Source of the DNA: an uncultured Clostridium sp.
GTDB taxonomy: Bacteria > Bacillota > Clostridia > Lachnospirales > Lachnospiraceae
Reading direction: 5' to 3'
Length of the DNA: 64,000 nt
Assembly (NCBI GenBank): GCA_900547035.1
Contig: URFM01000002.1
Span: 71,956-135,955, forward strand
Part shown: piece by piece, positions 5,585-55,094 of the stretch
Layout: every line of letters begins with the position of its first letter
Numbering within the stretch: position 1 is the first letter of the stretch
The notes under the pieces: model-generated
The model's database searches: none
Told to the model about the DNA's origin: nothing
Seen by the model: the letters and a program-made list of their open reading frames with translations, nothing else
Program-made: the position numbers and the translations under genes

Positions 5585-5612
5585 TTACGCATAAGCCGTC
5601 CTGAACGGTTGC
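5585..5612 (+). repeat. hairpin repeat of the GCCGTCCTGAACGG family (partial copy)
   Basis: TTACGCAT then GCCGTCCTGAACGGTTGCG, directly after the first FeoA stop. The 14-base core GCCGTCCTGAACGG matches the closing arms of the large element at 15473-15627. CCGT and ACGG within it can pair. Confidence 0.5.
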
Positions 5613-13876: not shown

Positions 13877-13905
13877 TTGACACATGTTTAAGAGAATGTT
13901 ATAAT
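13877..13905 (+). promoter_or_regulatory. consensus promoter of the MATE gene
   Basis: TTGACA, 17 bases, TATAAT: an exact sigma-70-type match. It lies about 155 bases before the MATE start and directly before the terminator at 13959-14000, so the message begins with a regulated leader. Confidence 0.85.
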
Positions 13906-13911
13906 GAAGCT

Positions 13912-14000
13912 CCAAAACTTTCACAGATGTGGACTTTTCTGGAACTTTCCATTTTTCGCCACACAATTACCGGTCCCCGGCAGTTGTGTGGTATTTTTTT
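13912..14000 (+). promoter_or_regulatory. transcribed leader with internal terminator (attenuator) of the MATE gene
   Basis: Expected RNA start near 13912. The terminator is CCACACAA (13959-13966) with TTGTGTGG (13984-13991) around a CCGG/CCGG inner stem, then T7 (13994-14000). TGTGG at 13928-13932 could pair with the CCACA arm and act as antiterminator. No known aptamer was recognised. Confidence 0.7.
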
Positions 14001-14034
14001 GTTACGAGCACTTAGCGCCTGTCCTTCAGGCCCC
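14000..14034 (-). repeat. hairpin repeat, family A, copy 2
   Basis: Read on the minus strand, GCCTGAAGGACAGGCGC, then TAAGTGCTCGTAAC. The core matches copy 1 at 9231-9249 and the tail TAAGTGCTCGTAAC equals that at 29290-29303. It directly abuts the MATE leader terminator's T-run. Confidence 0.65.
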
Positions 14035-14059
14035 ATATTTTGAGAGGAGAGATGACAAA

Positions 14060-15406
14060 ATGAACCAGACTTATATGAAAGAAAAGCCGGTCCTCCCCCT
14101 GCTTTTGAGCATGTCCCTTCCCATGGTGATTTCCATGCTGGTCAATTCCCTGTACAATATCGTGGACAGCTATTTTGTAGCCAGAATCAGCGAGGAGGCC
14201 ATGACGGCCCTTTCCCTGGTCTATCCGGTGCAGAACCTGGTCAGCGCCGTTACCATCGGATACGGAGTGGGAATTAACGCGGTGATAGCCTTTTACCTGG
14301 GAGCCCAGGACCAGGAGAAAACGGACCGGGCGGCGGCTCAGGGTATTTTGGTCAGCGCCGTACACGGGGTAATCCTGACGGTTGGCTGTATCGCCGCCAT
14401 GCCCTGGTTTCTGCGGATGTTTACCTCCGATGAGGTACTCATTGACCTGAGCATGCGCTATTCAAGGATTGTATTCGGCTTTTCCGTCATAGTGGCTCTG
14501 GGGCTGGCCTATGAGAAGATTTTCCAGGCGGTGGGGAGGATGGGCTCTACCATGTTCTGCCTGATGGCGGGCTGCATTGCCAATATTATCCTGGACCCAA
14601 TTATGATTTTCGGCCTGGGCCCTGTGCCGGCTATGGGAATTGAAGGGGCGGCGCTGGCCACAGGGTTGGGACAGGTCCTGACATTGGTGCTGTATCTGGT
14701 CATCTGCCGGGTTCAGCCTATTCCGGTGCGCATTCATCTGAAAGACTTTGTGCCGGACTCCTATATGATTCGCCGTTTGTACGCGGTGGGGATTCCGGCT
14801 GCTTTGAGCATGGCCCTGCCCTCTATCCTGATTTCCGCCCTGAACGCGGTATTGGCCGCATTTTCGGAGAGCTATGTGCTGGTGCTGGGGATTTATTATA
14901 AGCTGCAGACCTTTTTGTACCTGCCGGCCAGCGGAATCGTCCAGGGGATGCGGCCAATCGTGGGCTACAACTATGGAGCCGGGGAAACAAGGCGGGTGAA
15001 GGAAATCTGCAAAACGGCTCTCTGGATGACGGCGCTTATCATGGTTGTGGGAACGCTGCTGTGCCAGACTGTCCCGGACCGGCTTATGGGACTTTTTACT
15101 TCCAATCGTCAGACCGTGGTTATGGGAGCGGCGGCTTTGAGGATAATTAGTGCGGGATTTATCCTGTCCTCCGTATCTGTTACCTTTTCCGGCGCTTTGG
15201 AAGGTCTTGGAAAGGGAGGCCCTTCCTTTATGATTTCGCTGCTCCGGTATATGGTCATCATTATTCCGGCGGCTTTCCTGCTGAGCCGTGTGGCGGGAGC
15301 GGCTGGCGTATGGCATGCCTTCTGGATTACGGAGGGGGCTGCCGCAGCAGCTTCGTTCCTGATTCTCAGAGGAGAATTGAAAAAAATGGAGAACCGTCAG
15401 AAATAG
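14060..15406 (+). CDS. MATE-family multidrug/metabolite exporter
   Basis: A 448-residue membrane protein with 12 predicted helices in two homologous halves, of the clostridial MATE group. It opens MNQTYMKEKPVLPLLLSMSL and has the typical PMVISMLVNSLYNIVDSYFV in helix 1 and SGIVQGMRPIVGYNYGAG in the second half. MATE proteins export cationic compounds in exchange for Na+ or H+. ATG 14060 follows GAGAGGAGAG; the frame is open back to 13904, but that ATG overlaps the -10 element and is not used. Expression probably depends on read-through of the leader terminator. Confidence 0.92.
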   Translation: MNQTYMKEKPVLPLLLSMSLPMVISMLVNSLYNIVDSYFVARISEEAMTALSLVYPVQNLVSAVTIGYGVGINAVIAFYLGAQDQEKTDRAAAQGILVSAVHGVILTVGCIAAMPWFLRMFTSDEVLIDLSMRYSRIVFGFSVIVALGLAYEKIFQAVGRMGSTMFCLMAGCIANIILDPIMIFGLGPVPAMGIEGAALATGLGQVLTLVLYLVICRVQPIPVRIHLKDFVPDSYMIRRLYAVGIPAALSMALPSILISALNAVLAAFSESYVLVLGIYYKLQTFLYLPASGIVQGMRPIVGYNYGAGETRRVKEICKTALWMTALIMVVGTLLCQTVPDRLMGLFTSNRQTVVMGAAALRIISAGFILSSVSVTFSGALEGLGKGGPSFMISLLRYMVIIIPAAFLLSRVAGAAGVWHAFWITEGAAAAASFLILRGELKKMENRQK

Positions 15407-15472
15407 CAGGACAAAACTGCCACAGGGTCTCGCGCCTTCTTGTAGCCCCTCCCAATCTATGCTAGAATATAT

Positions 15473-15627
15473 GTAACCGTTCAGGACGGCGGGAAAATGG
15501 GAGCAAAAACAAGCGTTAAGCTTGCTTATAAGCGTGCTTTTGCTCCTGTTTTCACATCGGATGGACATCCGATGCTTCTTGTCCGGCCTTTGGCTGGACA
15601 AGAAGGTGAGCCGTCCTGAATAGTTAC
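15473..15627 (+). repeat. 155-nt four-stem structured element (family B, full copy)
   Basis: Closing stem 15473-15490 with 15610-15627 (17 of 18 pairs including one G-T). Inside: GAAAA-TG-GGAGCAAAA (15493-15508) with TTTTGCTCC-TG-TTTTC (15538-15553), itself capped by CAAGC/GCTTG. Then CATCGGAT/ATCCGATG (15555-15574) with a GGAC loop, then CTTCTTGTCC/GGACAAGAAG (15575-15605) with inner GCC/GGC. The architecture is a junction of three arms closed by a fourth. No ORF or known RNA was recognised. Confidence 0.75.
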
Positions 15628-15638
15628 GAATACATCCA

Positions 15639-15695
15639 GCCGTTCAGGACGGCGGGAAAACAGAGGCAAAAGACGTTTGCTCCACATCGATGGCA
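15639..15695 (+). repeat. family B element, truncated tandem copy
   Basis: CCGTTCAGGACGGCGGGAAAA repeats the left part of the element at 15473 almost exactly (bases 15640-15660 against 15478-15498), followed by GGCAAA...TTTGCTCC and ACATCGATG, matching its second and third stems in shortened form. The right closing arm is missing. The copy ends shortly before the M3 peptidase gene and covers its upstream region. Confidence 0.65.
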
Positions 15696-15722
15696 TAAGC
15701 GGCAGAGAGGCATGGTGCGGTG

Positions 15723-17783
15723 ATGAGATACAGGAAAATAATAGGCCGGGCGGCGGCGTTTCTGTCCGTAGCGGCATTGATTGGCGCAGGCCCGGAGACT
15801 GCGGCCTTTGCCGGGCAGAGGAAAGAGGCGGCAGTAGGGGAGAACTGGCAGGAGTCCGGAGAGAGTCAGGCGGTTCCCTACGCGGGGAGAAACTATGAGG
15901 GGATTGACCTTGCACGGCTGGAGCAGCTTTTGGCTCAGCTGGAGCAGGCCTGCCAGGGTCAGGAGGCTATGGCGGCGGACTGGAGACAGGCAGCCGTGGA
16001 GACGGCCCAGGGGCAGGAAATTTCCGGCGACCCTCTATCCATTTACCAGCAGGTGTTAAGAGAGCTGGACTGGGACGCTACTCAGATGGCACTGGCGGAT
16101 ATTTTATACAGCAGGAACATGGAGGACGCGGCGCTGTCGGCCCAGTATGAGGAGGCTGCCGGAAAGACACAGGAGGCCATGGAGATGGTTTTGGTGCGCT
16201 TTCAGAGGATTCTGGGGATGCCGGGCGGAGCTGCGCTGGAGGCGGAAATGGGGCCGGAGCTCGCCAGGGCGGTGAAAGATTATGAGCCTGCCTCAGAGCG
16301 GCTGACCCAGCTGTGGGACCAGGAACTGGAGCTGATGCTGCGCTATAATCAGGTATACGCAGAAGACTTTACCGTCGATGTGGATGGCCGGCAGTGGGAC
16401 TACGCTTCTCTGGATGAGGCCGGACTGGACTATGAGGATTATTACCGGATTTACATGGAGCTGGAAAAGGAGAATAACCGCAGACTGGGAGAGGTTTATC
16501 TGGAACTGGCTCAGGTCCGCAGTCAGATTGCCAGAGAAAGCGGGTACGATACTTACAGCGATTACGCTTATGAAGCGGTTTACGGGCGGGATTTTATGCC
16601 CCAGGATACGGAAAAGCTTTATGGACCGATTAAAGACAGTGCCCTGCTTTTGCTGGAGGACTGCTGGTACGCCCAGTATGAGGATGTGTCGGAGGCCGTT
16701 TCCCAGGACACGGAGGAATTGCTGGACCAGGTGCAGAACTGCGTGGAGGATATGGACCGGGAACTGGGAGAGACATTTTCCTATATGCGCCGCATGGGCC
16801 TTTACGATGTGGACTGGTCCGGGGAAAATGGAAGCCGCAGCGGGAGCTTTACCATTGATATGCCTTATTATGGAGACGCATTCGTATTTGTCACCAAGGA
16901 CAGCGGATTTCAGGACTTCTTTTCCCTGACCCATGAATTTGGCCATTTCGCGGCGTCCTGCAAAGAGGATACGCCCTGGCTCTATCAGGCCGGTTATACG
17001 GATGTGTGTGAAATCCAATCCCAGGGACTGGAACTTTTAATGCTCCACTACAAGGACAGCCTGTTTGGAGAGCTGGCGGCTGACGCCCAGCTGCAGAATG
17101 TGGGAAATGCGGTGGATTCCATTGTGGTGGGCGCCCTGCTGGATGAATTTGAAACGTGGGTTTATGACCAGCCTGCTCTGAGTCTGGAAGAAGCGAACCG
17201 GAAATTCGGCCAGATTAATGAAGAATATGACCAGTGGTATTTTACCAATGACCAGGACGGGCTCTGCTACAGCTGGGTCAACATCGGGCATCTGTTCCAG
17301 AACCCGCTGTACTACATCAGCTACGCCACATCCGCCTATCCGGCGCTGGAGCTGTGGCTGGATTCCCAGAGCGACTGGCAGGGGGCGGTGGACCGGTACA
17401 TGGAATTATCCGCCCTGGGGGTATCCCAGCCCTACCAGATGGCGGTGGATACCTGCGGCCTGGGAAGCATTTTCCAGGAAAATGCCATCGGACAGATGAC
17501 GGAGCAGGTAGGGAAAGCTCTGGATCTGGACAGTTATGGAGGAGAAGAGACTCCCTGGGATGGGGAAATTCCGTGGGAGGAAGAAATCCCATGGGAAGAG
17601 GAAATTCCATGGGAGGAAGGGCTGCCGCCCCAGGAGGAAACAGGCGGGGCCGCAGGAAATCAGGGGATCCGGTCGCTGGCACATATCGTGATTATGGGTG
17701 CGGCGGCGGTGATGGAGCTGCAGCTGGCCTGCTTTGCTGTGGGAGCTGTGATTTTGTGGGAGATTCGCAAACGGAAAAAATAG
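15723..17783 (+). CDS. exported, membrane-anchored M3-family zinc oligopeptidase
   Basis: A 686-residue metallopeptidase resembling oligoendopeptidase F, but secreted: a signal peptide covers about residues 1-30 (RAAAFLSVAALIGAG). The zinc site is HEFGH at 404-408 (TLTHEFGHFAA-like context), with downstream Glu in EIQSQGLELL. A Pro/Trp/Glu repeat (three EIPWEE units, about 615-640) leads to a C-terminal membrane helix and a RKRKK stop-transfer end. OepF enzymes are cytosolic, so an outward-facing, membrane-tethered version is unusual. ATG 15723 is used; GTG 15720 is possible. It converges with the next gene, four bases apart. Confidence 0.88.
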   Translation: MRYRKIIGRAAAFLSVAALIGAGPETAAFAGQRKEAAVGENWQESGESQAVPYAGRNYEGIDLARLEQLLAQLEQACQGQEAMAADWRQAAVETAQGQEISGDPLSIYQQVLRELDWDATQMALADILYSRNMEDAALSAQYEEAAGKTQEAMEMVLVRFQRILGMPGGAALEAEMGPELARAVKDYEPASERLTQLWDQELELMLRYNQVYAEDFTVDVDGRQWDYASLDEAGLDYEDYYRIYMELEKENNRRLGEVYLELAQVRSQIARESGYDTYSDYAYEAVYGRDFMPQDTEKLYGPIKDSALLLLEDCWYAQYEDVSEAVSQDTEELLDQVQNCVEDMDRELGETFSYMRRMGLYDVDWSGENGSRSGSFTIDMPYYGDAFVFVTKDSGFQDFFSLTHEFGHFAASCKEDTPWLYQAGYTDVCEIQSQGLELLMLHYKDSLFGELAADAQLQNVGNAVDSIVVGALLDEFETWVYDQPALSLEEANRKFGQINEEYDQWYFTNDQDGLCYSWVNIGHLFQNPLYYISYATSAYPALELWLDSQSDWQGAVDRYMELSALGVSQPYQMAVDTCGLGSIFQENAIGQMTEQVGKALDLDSYGGEETPWDGEIPWEEEIPWEEEIPWEEGLPPQEETGGAAGNQGIRSLAHIVIMGAAAVMELQLACFAVGAVILWEIRKRKK

Positions 17784-47542: not shown

Positions 47543-47549
47543 TTTGGGG

Positions 47550-47610
47550 AACAATTCAGAATGGCTCACACCCCGAGGGCACCTGGTCTTTTTGACAGGC
47601 CTGAATTGTT
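47550..47610 (+). repeat. inverted repeat after the LysR gene (family B-like tail)
   Basis: AACAATTCAG (47550-47559) with CTGAATTGTT (47601-47610), enclosing an imperfect CCTGGTC/GACAGG hairpin with T5 loop. The tail CTGAATTGTTACG resembles family B ends (CTGAATAGTTACG at 15616). May terminate the LysR transcript. Confidence 0.5.
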
Positions 47611-47653
47611 ACGAAAATTGTAATAAAAATGTTACGCATTCGTTCATGCGCTG

Positions 47654-47662
47654 TGATATAAT
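47654..47662 (+). promoter_or_regulatory. extended -10 promoter of the choline-binding protein genes
   Basis: TGATATAAT (TGn plus TATAAT). No good -35 is present at 17 bases, as usual for extended -10 promoters. The untranslated region to the start at 47864 is about 195 bases. Confidence 0.55.
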
Positions 47663-47687
47663 GTTCGTGTTGGCAATGAGCAGTGCG

Positions 47688-47750
47688 GGCATAAAGACAG
47701 GGGAGCCGGCGTTGTGCCCGCACAAAAGCCGGCTCCCCTGTCTTTATGCC
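47688..47750 (+). promoter_or_regulatory. perfect 23-bp stem-loop in the 5' region of the choline-binding protein gene
   Basis: Bases 47688-47710 and 47728-47750 are exact inverted repeats of 23 bases, with a 17-base loop containing a nested TTGTG/CACAA stem. GTGCGGGC just before or in the left arm can also pair with GCCCGCAC in the loop (47715-47722), giving an alternative fold. There is no T-run after it. Confidence 0.75.
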
Positions 47751-47756
47751 TATAGG

Positions 47757-47796
47757 GCGAAGCCCGCGAGCCCGGGGCCGGAGCCGGCCCCGGGCT
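47757..47796 (+). promoter_or_regulatory. second GC-rich hairpin cluster in the same leader
   Basis: GGGC-GAA-GCCC (47757-47767) then AGCCCGGGGCCGG, two bases, CCGGCCCCGGGCT (about 47769-47796), a 13-pair perfect stem. It would block ribosome or polymerase progress unless remodelled. Confidence 0.65.
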
Positions 47797-47863
47797 GCCC
47801 TGCGGAACCATTTCGTGGGCCCCTACGTGTCTTAAAGTACAAAATGGAGGAGGGATTGTTGGG

Positions 47864-48892
47864 ATGTTACGCGGAAAATATCGGAGATATCTGGCTGCGG
47901 CAGCTCTGATCGGCGCATTGTCGCTGGGAACTGCGTTTACGGCATATGCAGATGGATGGGACAAGTCAAACGGACAGTGGGTTTATATGGAAAACGGGGC
48001 GGCCAAGAAGGGATGGATCCAGACCAGTGACGGCTATTATTATATGGATCTGTCCACCGGTTATATGTGTACTGGTTTTCAGCAGATTAATGGGACCTGG
48101 TACTTTTTTAAGCCAAGCGGCCTTATGGCCACTGGCTGGGTGAATACGGACAACAAGTGGTATTACATGATGAACGATGGAGCCATGGTAACCGGTTGGC
48201 TGAAGATTGATAAGGGCAATGGAGATGTTTCCTACTACTATATGAGGGGCGGCGGCGATATGGCTACCGGCTGGCGGGAGATGGATGGCGCCTGGTATTA
48301 TTTCCAGAGCAATGGGAAATGCGTGGTCAACGCCTGGGCTCAGATTAAAGACCAGTGGTTTCTGTTCGGGGAAGACGGTAAAATGAAAACCGGATGGAAT
48401 AAGATTAACGACGACTACTATTATCTGGATACCGACGGTCACATGCTGACCGGCTGGCTTACAGACAGCAATGGAAGCAAATATTATATGGACGCTGCCG
48501 GCAAGATGTCGGTGGGATGGGAGCAGATTGATAACAGCTGGTACTATTTTAATGATAACGGCCATATGCTGACCGGCTGGATTCTGGTTTCCGGAAAGTA
48601 TTATTATCTGGATCCTTCTACGGGCAAGATGGCGGCAGGTACTACTCTGACCATCGATGGCTCCTCCTACACCTTTGATTCCAGCGGCGTTTGCCAGAAT
48701 GCCGGGGGAGTGACAGCTCAGAGTCCGGGAACAAGTTCTACAAACAACAATAACACCAGCAATTATGGACCGGGAGTATCCGGTTCCGGTTCATCTTCCA
48801 GCCAGTCGCCTTCCAGTTCTACAAGCGGCAGCACCAGCAAGGAGACAGCCTCCCAGGGTCTGCAGCCAGGGCTGACCGATGGACCGGGCTGA
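47864..48892 (+). CDS. secreted cell-wall protein made of choline-binding-type repeats
   Basis: A 342-residue secreted protein: signal peptide 1-30 (YRRYLAAAALIGALSLGTAFTAYA), then about 11-12 tandem CW_binding repeats of about 20 residues (GW...WYYF...G.M.TGW). These bind phosphocholine in teichoic acids of pneumococci and related wall glycopolymers. After residue 285 comes a Ser/Thr/Asn-rich tail ending GLTDGPG. No enzymatic domain. The first gene of a unit with the GH25 muramidase 16 bases on. The 5' leader is heavily structured. The phosphocholine ligand is inferred from the LicC-LicA-type enzyme 2.8 kb upstream. Confidence 0.9.
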   Translation: MLRGKYRRYLAAAALIGALSLGTAFTAYADGWDKSNGQWVYMENGAAKKGWIQTSDGYYYMDLSTGYMCTGFQQINGTWYFFKPSGLMATGWVNTDNKWYYMMNDGAMVTGWLKIDKGNGDVSYYYMRGGGDMATGWREMDGAWYYFQSNGKCVVNAWAQIKDQWFLFGEDGKMKTGWNKINDDYYYLDTDGHMLTGWLTDSNGSKYYMDAAGKMSVGWEQIDNSWYYFNDNGHMLTGWILVSGKYYYLDPSTGKMAAGTTLTIDGSSYTFDSSGVCQNAGGVTAQSPGTSSTNNNNTSNYGPGVSGSGSSSSQSPSSSTSGSTSKETASQGLQPGLTDGPG

Positions 48893-48908
48893 GAAAAGAG
48901 AGGATTAT

Positions 48909-50750
48909 ATGAGACATAAGATACGTTGCAGAACGGTCTTCTGCGGAGGGGCGTTGGTCCGCCGCAGAGCTGCGGCAGCCGGTTTGGCGGCAGTGCTGTC
49001 CGCTATGGCGCCGGTTACGGCCTGGGCGGCAGGGCCTGGGGAAACGGGAGCAGCAAGCACATCCGGGGGGCCGGGGGTGGTAAACGTTGGAGGAAGCACA
49101 TCACAGTCCGGCAGCTCTGCAAGCGGCAGCCAGACGGGAAGCAGTACCTCGGATACCTCTTGGGAATACTCGGGAGGGGCCTACCGCATGCCGGACGGAT
49201 CCGCCATTACCAATGTTATAGCCAGGGGAATCGATGTATCCCGGTGGCAGGGAGACATTGACTGGAGCCAGGTGGCGGCGGATGATGTTTCCTTTGTGAT
49301 GCTTGGAACCAGGTCCAGAGGCGCGGTGGATCCTTATTTTCATCAAAACATCCAGGCGGCCCACGCCGCAGGGGTGAAGGTGGGCGTCTACATCTATTCC
49401 CTTGCCACTACTACGGATATGGCGGTCCAGGAGGCGGATTTTGTACTGGACCTGATCAAAGACTATCCGGTATCCTACCCGGTGGCCTTTGATATGGAGG
49501 ACGACGCCCAGGGTGTGCTGTCCAAGGATGAGCTGGCGGCCATCGCCAACGCCTTCTGCCAGAGAATTTCCGATGCGGGTTATTATCCTATCATTTATGC
49601 CAATGAGAACTGGCTTAACAATAAGCTGGACATGTCTAAGATGGATTATCCCGTATGGGTAGCCCGGTATTCTGCGAGACCTTCCTACTCCAATCCGGTG
49701 ATGTGGCAGGCGACCAATACCGGCTCCATCAATGGAATCAGCGGGAACGTGGACATCGATTTCCAGTTCAGCGACTTCACCTCCGTGATTCCGGCCAATA
49801 CCTGGAGAACAATCGGAGGGAATACATACTATTATCAGAATTATGCCATGCAGAAGGACGCCTGGATCAACGATGGGGAGGGCTGGTATTACATGGGGTC
49901 CGACGGTCTGGCGGAAACCGGCTGGCTGACGGAGAGCGGAGAGCTTTATTATTTGGATGAATCCACCGGTCAAATGCAGTACGGCTGGAAGGACCGGGAC
50001 GGCTCCTGGTATTATCTGGGAAGCTCCGGAGCGGCGGACAAAGGCTGGGTCCAGGATGGACAACTCTGGTATTATACGAACCCCAGCACCGGGGTAATGC
50101 AGACTGGCTGGATTGAGGACAATGGAAACCGGTATTTCCTGGAATCCAATGGAAGAATGGCAGTGGGTTGGACCAGCCAGGATGGAAAATGGTACTATTT
50201 AAGCGCCAGCGGAGCGCTTGCCAAGGGCTGGATTGACGATGGCGGGGTTTGGTACTACTCCGACAGCCAAGGCGTGATGCAGACTGGCTGGATTACCGTG
50301 GGAGGAAGCCGCTATTTCCTGAGAGGAAACGGTTCCATGGCTACGGGCTGGAGAGAGATGGACGGAGGCTGGTATTACTTCAATGGCCAGGGCCAGATGG
50401 TGACGGACTGGGAGCAGGTTAACGGACAGTGGTACTACTTTAACAGCTCAGGCGTGATGCAGACCGGTCTGATCAATGTCAATGGGGTGAATTATTATTT
50501 AGACCCTGCGGACGGCTTTATGTACGCCAATACAACGGTCACTGTGGACGGAGTGTCATACAATGCGGATGGAAGCGGCGCCCTGAGCCAGGTTCAGCAG
50601 CCGGACGCACAGCAGACAGAGGGCTCTCAGAACGGCAGTCAGACGGCTGAAACGCAGCAGACACAGAGCCAGCAGACCCAGGAGAGCGGCTCTGCTCCGG
50701 GACCGGTAATTATAGAAGGCGTCAACGGCGGACCGGGAGTTACAGGATAG
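48909..50750 (+). CDS. GH25 muramidase with choline-binding repeats
   Basis: A 613-residue secreted wall enzyme: signal peptide 1-40, a Gly/Ser/Thr-rich spacer, a GH25 lysozyme domain (about 98-295: ARGIDVSRWQGDIDW, GVYIYSLATTT, VAFDMEDDAQG with the catalytic acids, NVDIDFQF), and about 12 CW repeats (about 305-560), then a Gln/Thr-rich tail ending NGGPGVTG. It cleaves the muramic acid-GlcNAc bond in peptidoglycan and is tethered by its repeats. ATG 48909 follows AGAGAGGA; longer frame to 48879 overlaps the previous gene. Partner of the preceding repeat protein. Confidence 0.93.
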   Translation: MRHKIRCRTVFCGGALVRRRAAAAGLAAVLSAMAPVTAWAAGPGETGAASTSGGPGVVNVGGSTSQSGSSASGSQTGSSTSDTSWEYSGGAYRMPDGSAITNVIARGIDVSRWQGDIDWSQVAADDVSFVMLGTRSRGAVDPYFHQNIQAAHAAGVKVGVYIYSLATTTDMAVQEADFVLDLIKDYPVSYPVAFDMEDDAQGVLSKDELAAIANAFCQRISDAGYYPIIYANENWLNNKLDMSKMDYPVWVARYSARPSYSNPVMWQATNTGSINGISGNVDIDFQFSDFTSVIPANTWRTIGGNTYYYQNYAMQKDAWINDGEGWYYMGSDGLAETGWLTESGELYYLDESTGQMQYGWKDRDGSWYYLGSSGAADKGWVQDGQLWYYTNPSTGVMQTGWIEDNGNRYFLESNGRMAVGWTSQDGKWYYLSASGALAKGWIDDGGVWYYSDSQGVMQTGWITVGGSRYFLRGNGSMATGWREMDGGWYYFNGQGQMVTDWEQVNGQWYYFNSSGVMQTGLINVNGVNYYLDPADGFMYANTTVTVDGVSYNADGSGALSQVQQPDAQQTEGSQNGSQTAETQQTQSQQTQESGSAPGPVIIEGVNGGPGVTG

Positions 50751-51508: not shown

Positions 51509-51567
51509 TGTTCACATCGGATGTCCTGAAAAAGTACCACTGAAAAAGAAAGGCGGTGTATGCTGCT

Positions 51568-54984: not shown

Positions 54985-55002
54985 TACAAGGTACTAAAGT
55001 TG

Positions 55003-55027
55003 CTGTTCAGGCTGCTGTCCTGAACAG
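55003..55027 (+). repeat. miniature family B hairpin
   Basis: CTGTTCAGG, seven bases, CCTGAACAG: a perfect 9-pair stem, using the same CTGTTCAGG/CCTGAAC arm as the closing stem of the element at 15473-15627, followed by ATGCG. It lies in the leader of the peptide ABC operon. Confidence 0.6.
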
Positions 55028-55094
55028 ATGCGTAAAACAGAAGTTTTGCGCTGAAAGGAACCCCAACCGGTAAACAATGGTCAAGGAGGAGTTT

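Follow-up and report, generated by a model that had tools for sequence, protein, structure and literature searches.

A putative IS66-mobilised miniature element with an RNA-like body in the Enterocloster group of Lachnospiraceae

The window analysed here is a stretch of 64,000 nucleotides from an uncultured Clostridium sp. of the Lachnospiraceae (contig URFM01000002.1 of assembly GCA_900547035.1, positions 71,956 to 135,955). Between a MATE transporter gene (13904-15406) and a gene whose product resembles M3 peptidases, with a score under the curated cut-offs (15720-17783), lies a repeat element (15473-15695) that is crossed by two mechanically called minus-strand open reading frames (14462-15601 and 15526-15915). 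The element belongs to a family of small non-coding mobile DNAs, copies of which recur among gut bacteria of the Enterocloster group. It contains a complete miniature element (MITE) of 155 bp on the plus strand (15473-15627), bounded by a target duplication of 8 bp, the left copy of which, GAATATAT (15465-15472), is identical at 7 of 8 positions to the right copy, GAATACAT (15628-15635), in the same register as in other copies of the family. A truncated second copy on the plus strand (15636-15693) follows, with a left end, a collapsed arm 1 and the start of arm 2.

In the predicted RNA fold of 15473-15695, the left terminal inverted repeat, GTAACCGTTCAGGACGGC (15473-15490), and the right terminal inverted repeat (15610-15627) form the 5' and 3' sides of a closing stem of 17 pairs and one mismatch, which encloses three arms on the plus strand. 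Arm 1 (15493-15553) is a long hairpin, the stem of which is variable yet complementary, and it is capped by CGTTAAGCTTGCTTATAAG (15514-15532), consisting of a GU/UAA internal loop, a 4-bp helix and a CUUG loop, with invariant columns among the aligned copies; the short arm 2, CATCGGATGGACATCCGATG (15555-15574), and arm 3, CTTCTTG...CAAGAAG (15575-15605), are defined by the fold and by covariation. The folding energy of -107.6 kcal/mol, compared with a mean of -64.5 for shuffled sequences (z -10.4; 0 of 200 shuffles as good), indicates that the three-arm junction closed by a stem, which the original prediction had drawn by eye, is real, as is the truncated tandem copy that it had placed at about 15636-15693. 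The 155-nt core folds as strongly when treated as DNA (z -11.4) or as the opposite RNA strand (z -12.1), so that the fold alone cannot separate RNA from DNA.

The 155-nt sequence has matches in 13 of 17 genomes of the genus at E<=1e-3, with at least 45 in one genome, counts that are lower bounds because about 40 candidates were scored per genome. Candidatus Enterocloster faecavium has 19 matches at E<=0.01 (genome G001); its locus L001 encodes a protein that is 79% identical, over the best segment, to the 687-aa product of the gene downstream of the window's element. From 98 near-full hits, some of which are one copy in overlapping loci, 41 copies chosen by similarity and length were used to build a covariance model, R1; the MITE of the window, which scores 172.4 bits with R1, is among them. 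When 10 candidates were scored in each of 299 Lachnospiraceae genomes, 29 of the genomes had matches to R1 at E<=1e-6. This number does not equal that of MITE carriers, because the second RNA candidate described below accounts for at least one of the matches (L215). Antisense strands of the MITE reach 42-55 bits with R1, and covariance-model scores in general are inflated here because of the strong hairpins. A search of phages and plasmids with the element gave no DNA match; the exact 18-nt end occurs in two viral contigs, one of which has a full copy (L200) and the other no R1 match (L199). A literature search conducted mostly outside subscription journals found no description of this MITE.

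Mobility is indicated by the sequences flanking the copies. After removal of identical ones, 92 copies with flanks were available, of which 43 without exact ends were dropped; the remaining 49, with exact GTAAC...GTTAC ends, have perfect 8-bp direct repeats in 20 cases and at least 6 of 8 positions matching in 39. The copies are not all independent, since at least two pairs of them (L003/L004 and L096/L116) share their flanks; none of these four is among the 20 perfect cases. Flanks paired from different copies gave no perfect 8-bp repeat and at least 6 of 8 matches in 3.6%, and repeats of any other length from 2 to 14 bp were found in at most 3 of the 49 copies. Empty sites were found at two loci. 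The orthologous gap between the MATE and peptidase genes in L001 is without the element, and the truncated second copy is missing there too. A copy located between ptsH and ptsI (genes identified by eye from translation) is present in one genome (G017), and a single match spans the site in 12 of the 17 genomes with no insert of that size, as judged from match lengths; the same query matched in two pieces in G014 and G016, and on one side only in G010 and G011. A joined-flank query at another locus (L053) matched only its own genome. The mobile behaviour that the original prediction had read from full, tandem and solo-arm forms is thus supported by the 8-bp duplications, and the insertion-site polymorphism that it had proposed to look for was found at both of these loci. 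Being 155 bp long, dispersed and without a transposase, with terminal inverted repeats, a fixed-length duplication and insertion polymorphism, the element has the properties of a MITE.

The ends of the element resemble those of the ISBst12 group of the IS66 family, which have a single tnp gene. ISDge4, a member of this group, has ends GTAACTGCTCAGCA and GTGACTACTCAGCA and an 8-bp repeat, according to a portion of the text of PMC12898284. Like ISBst12-type elements, the MITE has GT(A/T)AC..(T/C)TCA ends and an 8-bp target duplication; unlike them, it is 155 bp long and has no transposase gene. In most single-gene IS66 loci of the family, the ends are GT(A/T)AC..TTCA(G/C), and four loci (L198, L249, L252 and L253) combine such ends with perfect 8-bp duplications, whereas the flanks of other single-gene end pairs (e.g. 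L188, L195, L244 and L251) match at 2-4 of 8 positions. The transposase of L198 passes the NCBIfam IS66 cut-off of 180 with 254.8 bits. Ends of some MITEs from distant genomes resemble particular IS ends further inward than the 12 or so outer bases that all have in common, matching at 19 of 20 positions (L216 with L243, and L217 with L190) or 18 of 20 (L208 with L195), each being the best of 27 IS ends, with no null for this choice and with partners from different genomes. The flanks of the 18 distant R1 loci match at 6 or more of 8 positions in nine (perfectly in L213 and L217) and at 2-4 of 8 in the other nine, including L216. For the two ends of the window's MITE, the best matches among the 27 IS ends are 14 of 20 and 16 of 20, the likeness consisting of the outer ~12 bases, and no cognate insertion sequence with GTAACAGTTCAGGACGGC ends (GGACGGC) was found among the IS66 loci; the parent of this subfamily is for these reasons assigned only at the level of the group. 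Taken together, the ends and duplications support mobilisation of the MITE in trans by a putative ISBst12-type IS66 transposase.

The distribution of transposases was surveyed in the same genomes. In six of the 13 genomes that have MITE matches, no IS66 transposase was matched, and the single-gene type was found in only two MITE genomes, G016 and G014 (24% identical), two short matches in G006 aside. G016, with 25 MITE matches, has a transposase fragment of 260 aa that is truncated by the contig end, is 89% identical to the transposase of L198 and has the right end GTAACTATTCAGAACCACC. Transposase searches of Lachnospiraceae had matches in 1 of 299 genomes at E 1e-60, in 10 of 299 at a looser threshold and in 24 of 397 with a longer query. 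Elements of the three-gene IS66 type from the genus (L128, L150 and L157), which have GTAAGCGTC ends and 8-bp repeats, were considered as the source and rejected: their ends share only GTAA with the MITE, and the single-gene group is therefore preferred. One genome without a MITE match (G005) has 31 IS66 transposase matches, and its loci L150 and L157 have GTAAGCGTC ends with perfect 8-bp repeats. The cap motif was sought in nine IS66 loci and found in none.

Elsewhere in the window, sites with up to 3 mismatches to the 15-nt end number 15, compared with 5.4 expected (0 of 100 shuffles). The clearest matches outside the element are at 5598-5612 and 47598-47612 (1 mismatch each) and at 55017-55031 (2 mismatches), which bears out three of the related arms that had been predicted (at 5596, 47601 and 55003); the two that had been named with less assurance are at chance level, the site at 51515 (51523-51537) having 3 mismatches and that at 892 falling outside the set with up to 3 mismatches (local BLAST E 0.71). 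The first match lies in a probable solo end-like remnant on the minus strand (5595-5612). The second belongs to a short form of 65 bp from edge to edge (47548-47612), with two end-like arms of 3 and 1 mismatches, for which a search by eye found no clear target duplication. The third is part of a short palindrome (54999-55031) that may correspond to two fused ends. In another genome, a 44-bp form consisting of two ends only is flanked by a perfect 8-bp duplication (L106, 2962-3005); it could be either a mobile minimal form or the product of a later internal deletion.

The body of the element is under structural constraint. In a MAFFT alignment of the 41 copies, 94.7% of cells pair, and 36 of 63 pairs have changed on both sides, with 174 double-change cells compared with 40 in shuffles (0 of 500 as many); in the main helix of arm 1, 19 of 20 pairs have changes on both sides. 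The further copies and compensating changes without which the original prediction would have been abandoned are therefore both present. Simultaneous double changes occur at 63 single pairs, in 5 runs of two and in 2 runs of three, a predominance of isolated pairs that is unlike block copying by template switching. In 10 of the 41 rows, the G of column 12 on the left and its counterpart in column 145 on the right are missing together, so that both halves of one base pair have been lost. Six columns of the cap (G48, C49, T50, G52, C53 and T55) are invariant in all 41 copies, and several neighbouring columns are at least 90% conserved; a strict text pattern for the cap matches 69 of 105 copies, but it also requires a particular preceding base, so that the column counts are the better measure.

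Departures from Watson-Crick pairing to G-U or to A-C were counted by parsimony along a tree of 101 copies, from which the last 5 of 110 rows (one hit to the second RNA candidate and four antisense hits) and 4 duplicates had been dropped; DNA-level or neutral change would give G-U and A-C in equal numbers. The GU:AC ratio is 57:22 in arm 1 (p 1e-4), 50:44 in the closing stem and 18:21 in arm 3, with 10:4 in arm 2 not being significant (p 0.18). The asymmetry of arm 1 is found both without genome G003 (40:16) and in G003 alone (21:4). The tree is weakly resolved and the alignment is fitted to the model; in an unfitted alignment, the cells give 42:10 for arm 1 and 26:35 for the closing stem. These counts support a constraint on arm 1 as structure, in a way that would favour the plus strand as RNA. 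The MITE has the orientation of the upstream gene in 26 of 57 copies and the opposite orientation in 31 (31 copies overlapping a crudely called open reading frame, duplicates and copies near a contig end being left out), and this absence of bias means that no cis-regulatory role is visible. The original prediction had offered a non-autonomous miniature element and a structured RNA family as alternatives; with duplications and empty sites on one side, and covariation and the strand test of arm 1 on the other, both appear to hold at once.

A second, low-copy structured RNA candidate is located on the plus strand at 47677-47768, within an R1 match of 64.4 bits at 47673-47814. It has a predicted 24-bp stem, a cap similar to that of the MITE (CGTTGTGCCCGCACAAAAG) and an arm, GGGCGAAGCCC, and is preceded by an extended -10-like box, TGATATAAT (47654-47662, plus strand), recognised from the sequence and partly conserved. 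DNA matches, one or two in each genome, were found in 10 of the 17 genomes of the genus, including G005, G008 and G012, in which the MITE had no match. Twelve sequences, one of them from a Lachnospiraceae genome outside the genus set (L215), can be aligned over 92 nt with no gap; changes on both sides are found in 23 of the 24 stem pairs, whereas the cap CGTTGTGC..GCACA.AAG and the arm GGGCGAAGCCC hardly vary. At a distance of 14 nt upstream of the aligned stretch, TGGTATAAT is exact in 6 of 13 sequences; the window has TGATATAAT, four others have one-base variants, and L215 and L294 have none. The box precedes the second RNA candidate and not the MITE. Neighbouring genes, compared by eye, differ between groups of genomes. 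An Rfam scan of 13 loci of the candidate gave nothing at gathering thresholds except two tRNAs in one locus, and no viral contig had its pattern. The sequence at 47677-47768 is put forward as a candidate for a separate, so far unannotated RNA in these genomes. Just downstream of it (47864-50750), the window encodes two proteins with choline-binding-type repeats.

The second RNA candidate and the MITE share an arrangement of arm 1, a cap with a GU/UAA loop and a CUUG-type loop, and arm 2. A covariance model, R2, was built from the twelve sequences of the candidate and no MITE, the window copy and L215 having first been found by R1. R2 found all 15 near-full MITE copies of the genus that were present in the 12 sources searched, in register, with E from 6e-13 to 2e-8, and no antisense strand of the MITE at E<=1; the antisense strands of the second RNA candidate itself score 35-37 bits. 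Among the distant R1 loci, R2 found 16 of 18 (including L215, which is in the model) and missed L213 and L218.

No Rfam family matches the element at its cut-off, the nearest being Clostridiales-1 (RF01699), which was proposed as an RNA in a 2010 paper where it appears in a table row (PMC2864571, consulted in part). The window element matches the whole model with 43.2 bits (E 1.8e-8), and both, as repeated structured elements found in Lachnospiraceae, show a closing stem, three arms and an arm with a CUUG cap, from which one might take the MITE to be a member of RF01699. This is very improbable, given that the score is below the gathering score of 48, that the 155 nt alone have no match at E<=0.001 and that 0 of 20 loci match at gathering. 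RF01699 is also unlike the MITE in having TGATG ends, 5-bp and not 8-bp repeats and a consensus without the GU/UAA loop, and the hits of R2 in RF01699 loci are confined to 2 of the 9 searched and are partial, at 19-26 bits. In Lachnospiraceae, RF01699 has matches at E<=0.001 in 83 of 150 genomes, 64 of them above the cut-off, and since the maximum of 17 scored candidates per genome was often reached, copies are a lower bound. Its copies (L219-L238) have TGATG...CATCA-like ends, and among the 15 of 20 loci in which the pattern found a right end (5 were dropped), exact direct repeats of 5 bp flank 8 and of 6 bp flank 2, compared with 2.9% and 0 in controls. These ends and repeats give the RF01699 'RNA gene' family the look of a further MITE, one that uses a transposition system of another kind.

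Three further explanations bear on the element. A MITE that acts as DNA only, with arms that are palindromes kept by hairpin-templated repair or recombination and a likeness to the second RNA candidate that arose by convergence of hairpins, would spread by its ends and target duplication without any RNA, and would fold, relative to shuffles, as strongly as DNA as it does as RNA of either strand, with the unbiased gene orientation that is observed. We nevertheless consider it unlikely, because it would not predict a GU:AC asymmetry that is confined to arm 1, absent from the closing stem and arm 3, and found in two separate subsets, nor double changes that fall mostly on isolated pairs (63 single, as against 5 and 2 runs) and not in blocks, nor a conserved cap sequence, nor recognition of the MITEs by R2 on one strand only. 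At the other extreme, the strong covariation and the arrangement common to a low-copy RNA candidate would suit a dispersed family of small-RNA genes that is not itself mobile and has multiplied by duplication; 8-bp duplications at exact ends, empty sites and IS-type ends contradict this, and it is hard to credit. Least probable of all is a REP- or BIME-like element moved by a RAYT (Y1) transposase, which the palindromic, tandem and solo forms would call to mind, but which is contradicted by the terminal repeats and the 8-bp duplication, as expected of a DDE transposase; REP elements are not known to have target duplications.

The reading that we prefer, with a probability of about 0.78, is that 15473-15627 is an IS66-mobilised MITE, the body of which is an RNA module shared with the second RNA candidate. 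A DDE transposase of the ISBst12 type (IS66 family, single tnp) would recognise the ends of the MITE in trans and insert it into mostly A+T-rich targets, duplicating 8 bp. The 155-bp body would form the closing stem and three arms, with the constraint on arm 1 favouring the plus strand as RNA, and a transcribed copy may fold like the second RNA candidate, with either the same cellular factor recognising both or double-stranded RNA being processed. Such recognition or processing at the RNA level would explain why the fold is retained even though the ends alone would be expected to suffice for transposition. A broader proposition is offered tentatively and is rather doubtful. In it, MITEs that IS66 transposases mobilise in Lachnospiraceae would have as their cargo a cellular non-coding RNA, copied or mimicked, namely the low-copy candidate at 47677-47768 and its relatives; a host factor would bind the conserved cap, which sits on a hypervariable but always complementary stem, and so confer on the DNA element an advantage at the RNA level. 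It would make these elements bacterial, DNA-transposon counterparts of eukaryotic SINEs, which are likewise non-autonomous with a body resembling a cellular RNA. SINEs move via RNA, whereas the MITE belongs to the DNA elements and has a target duplication as long as that of IS66.

MITEs are commonly regarded as remnants of insertion sequences, the interior of which is arbitrary. In the present family, the interior is a constrained, RNA-like module that occurs on elements with different IS66-type ends and also in a separate RNA candidate. If this reading is correct, a cellular RNA fold can be dispersed and maintained in many copies by transposons, and one could search directly for the factor that reads the cap. 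Bodies of mobile elements may also be present among the candidate structured RNAs of databases, RF01699 being an example to check.

Among bacterial elements, Correia/NEMIS, ERIC and RUP are described, in the parts of the sources consulted, as short, with terminal repeats, target duplication and a stably folded transcript (PMC2229807, PMC10969869), most MITEs of this type having TA termini (PMC2229807) and RUP being proposed to be moved by an insertion sequence with similar ends (PMC2229807, PMC10969869). The present element is similar in its short size, terminal repeats, target duplication and the stable fold predicted for a transcript. It differs from them in having GTAAC...GTTAC ends of IS66 type with 8-bp duplications in place of TA termini, and in its closed three-arm junction and a sequence-conserved cap that is shared with an RNA candidate. 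Variants of the body occur in other genomes: at one locus (L207), the cap motif is found three times, at about 1532, 1663 and 1794, with a spacing of 131 nt, which is likely a tandem array of the element, and four copies (L074, L075, L088 and L120) have inserts of ~16-20 bases, composed of GTGCCC- and GGG-rich halves, within arm 1 or arm 2.
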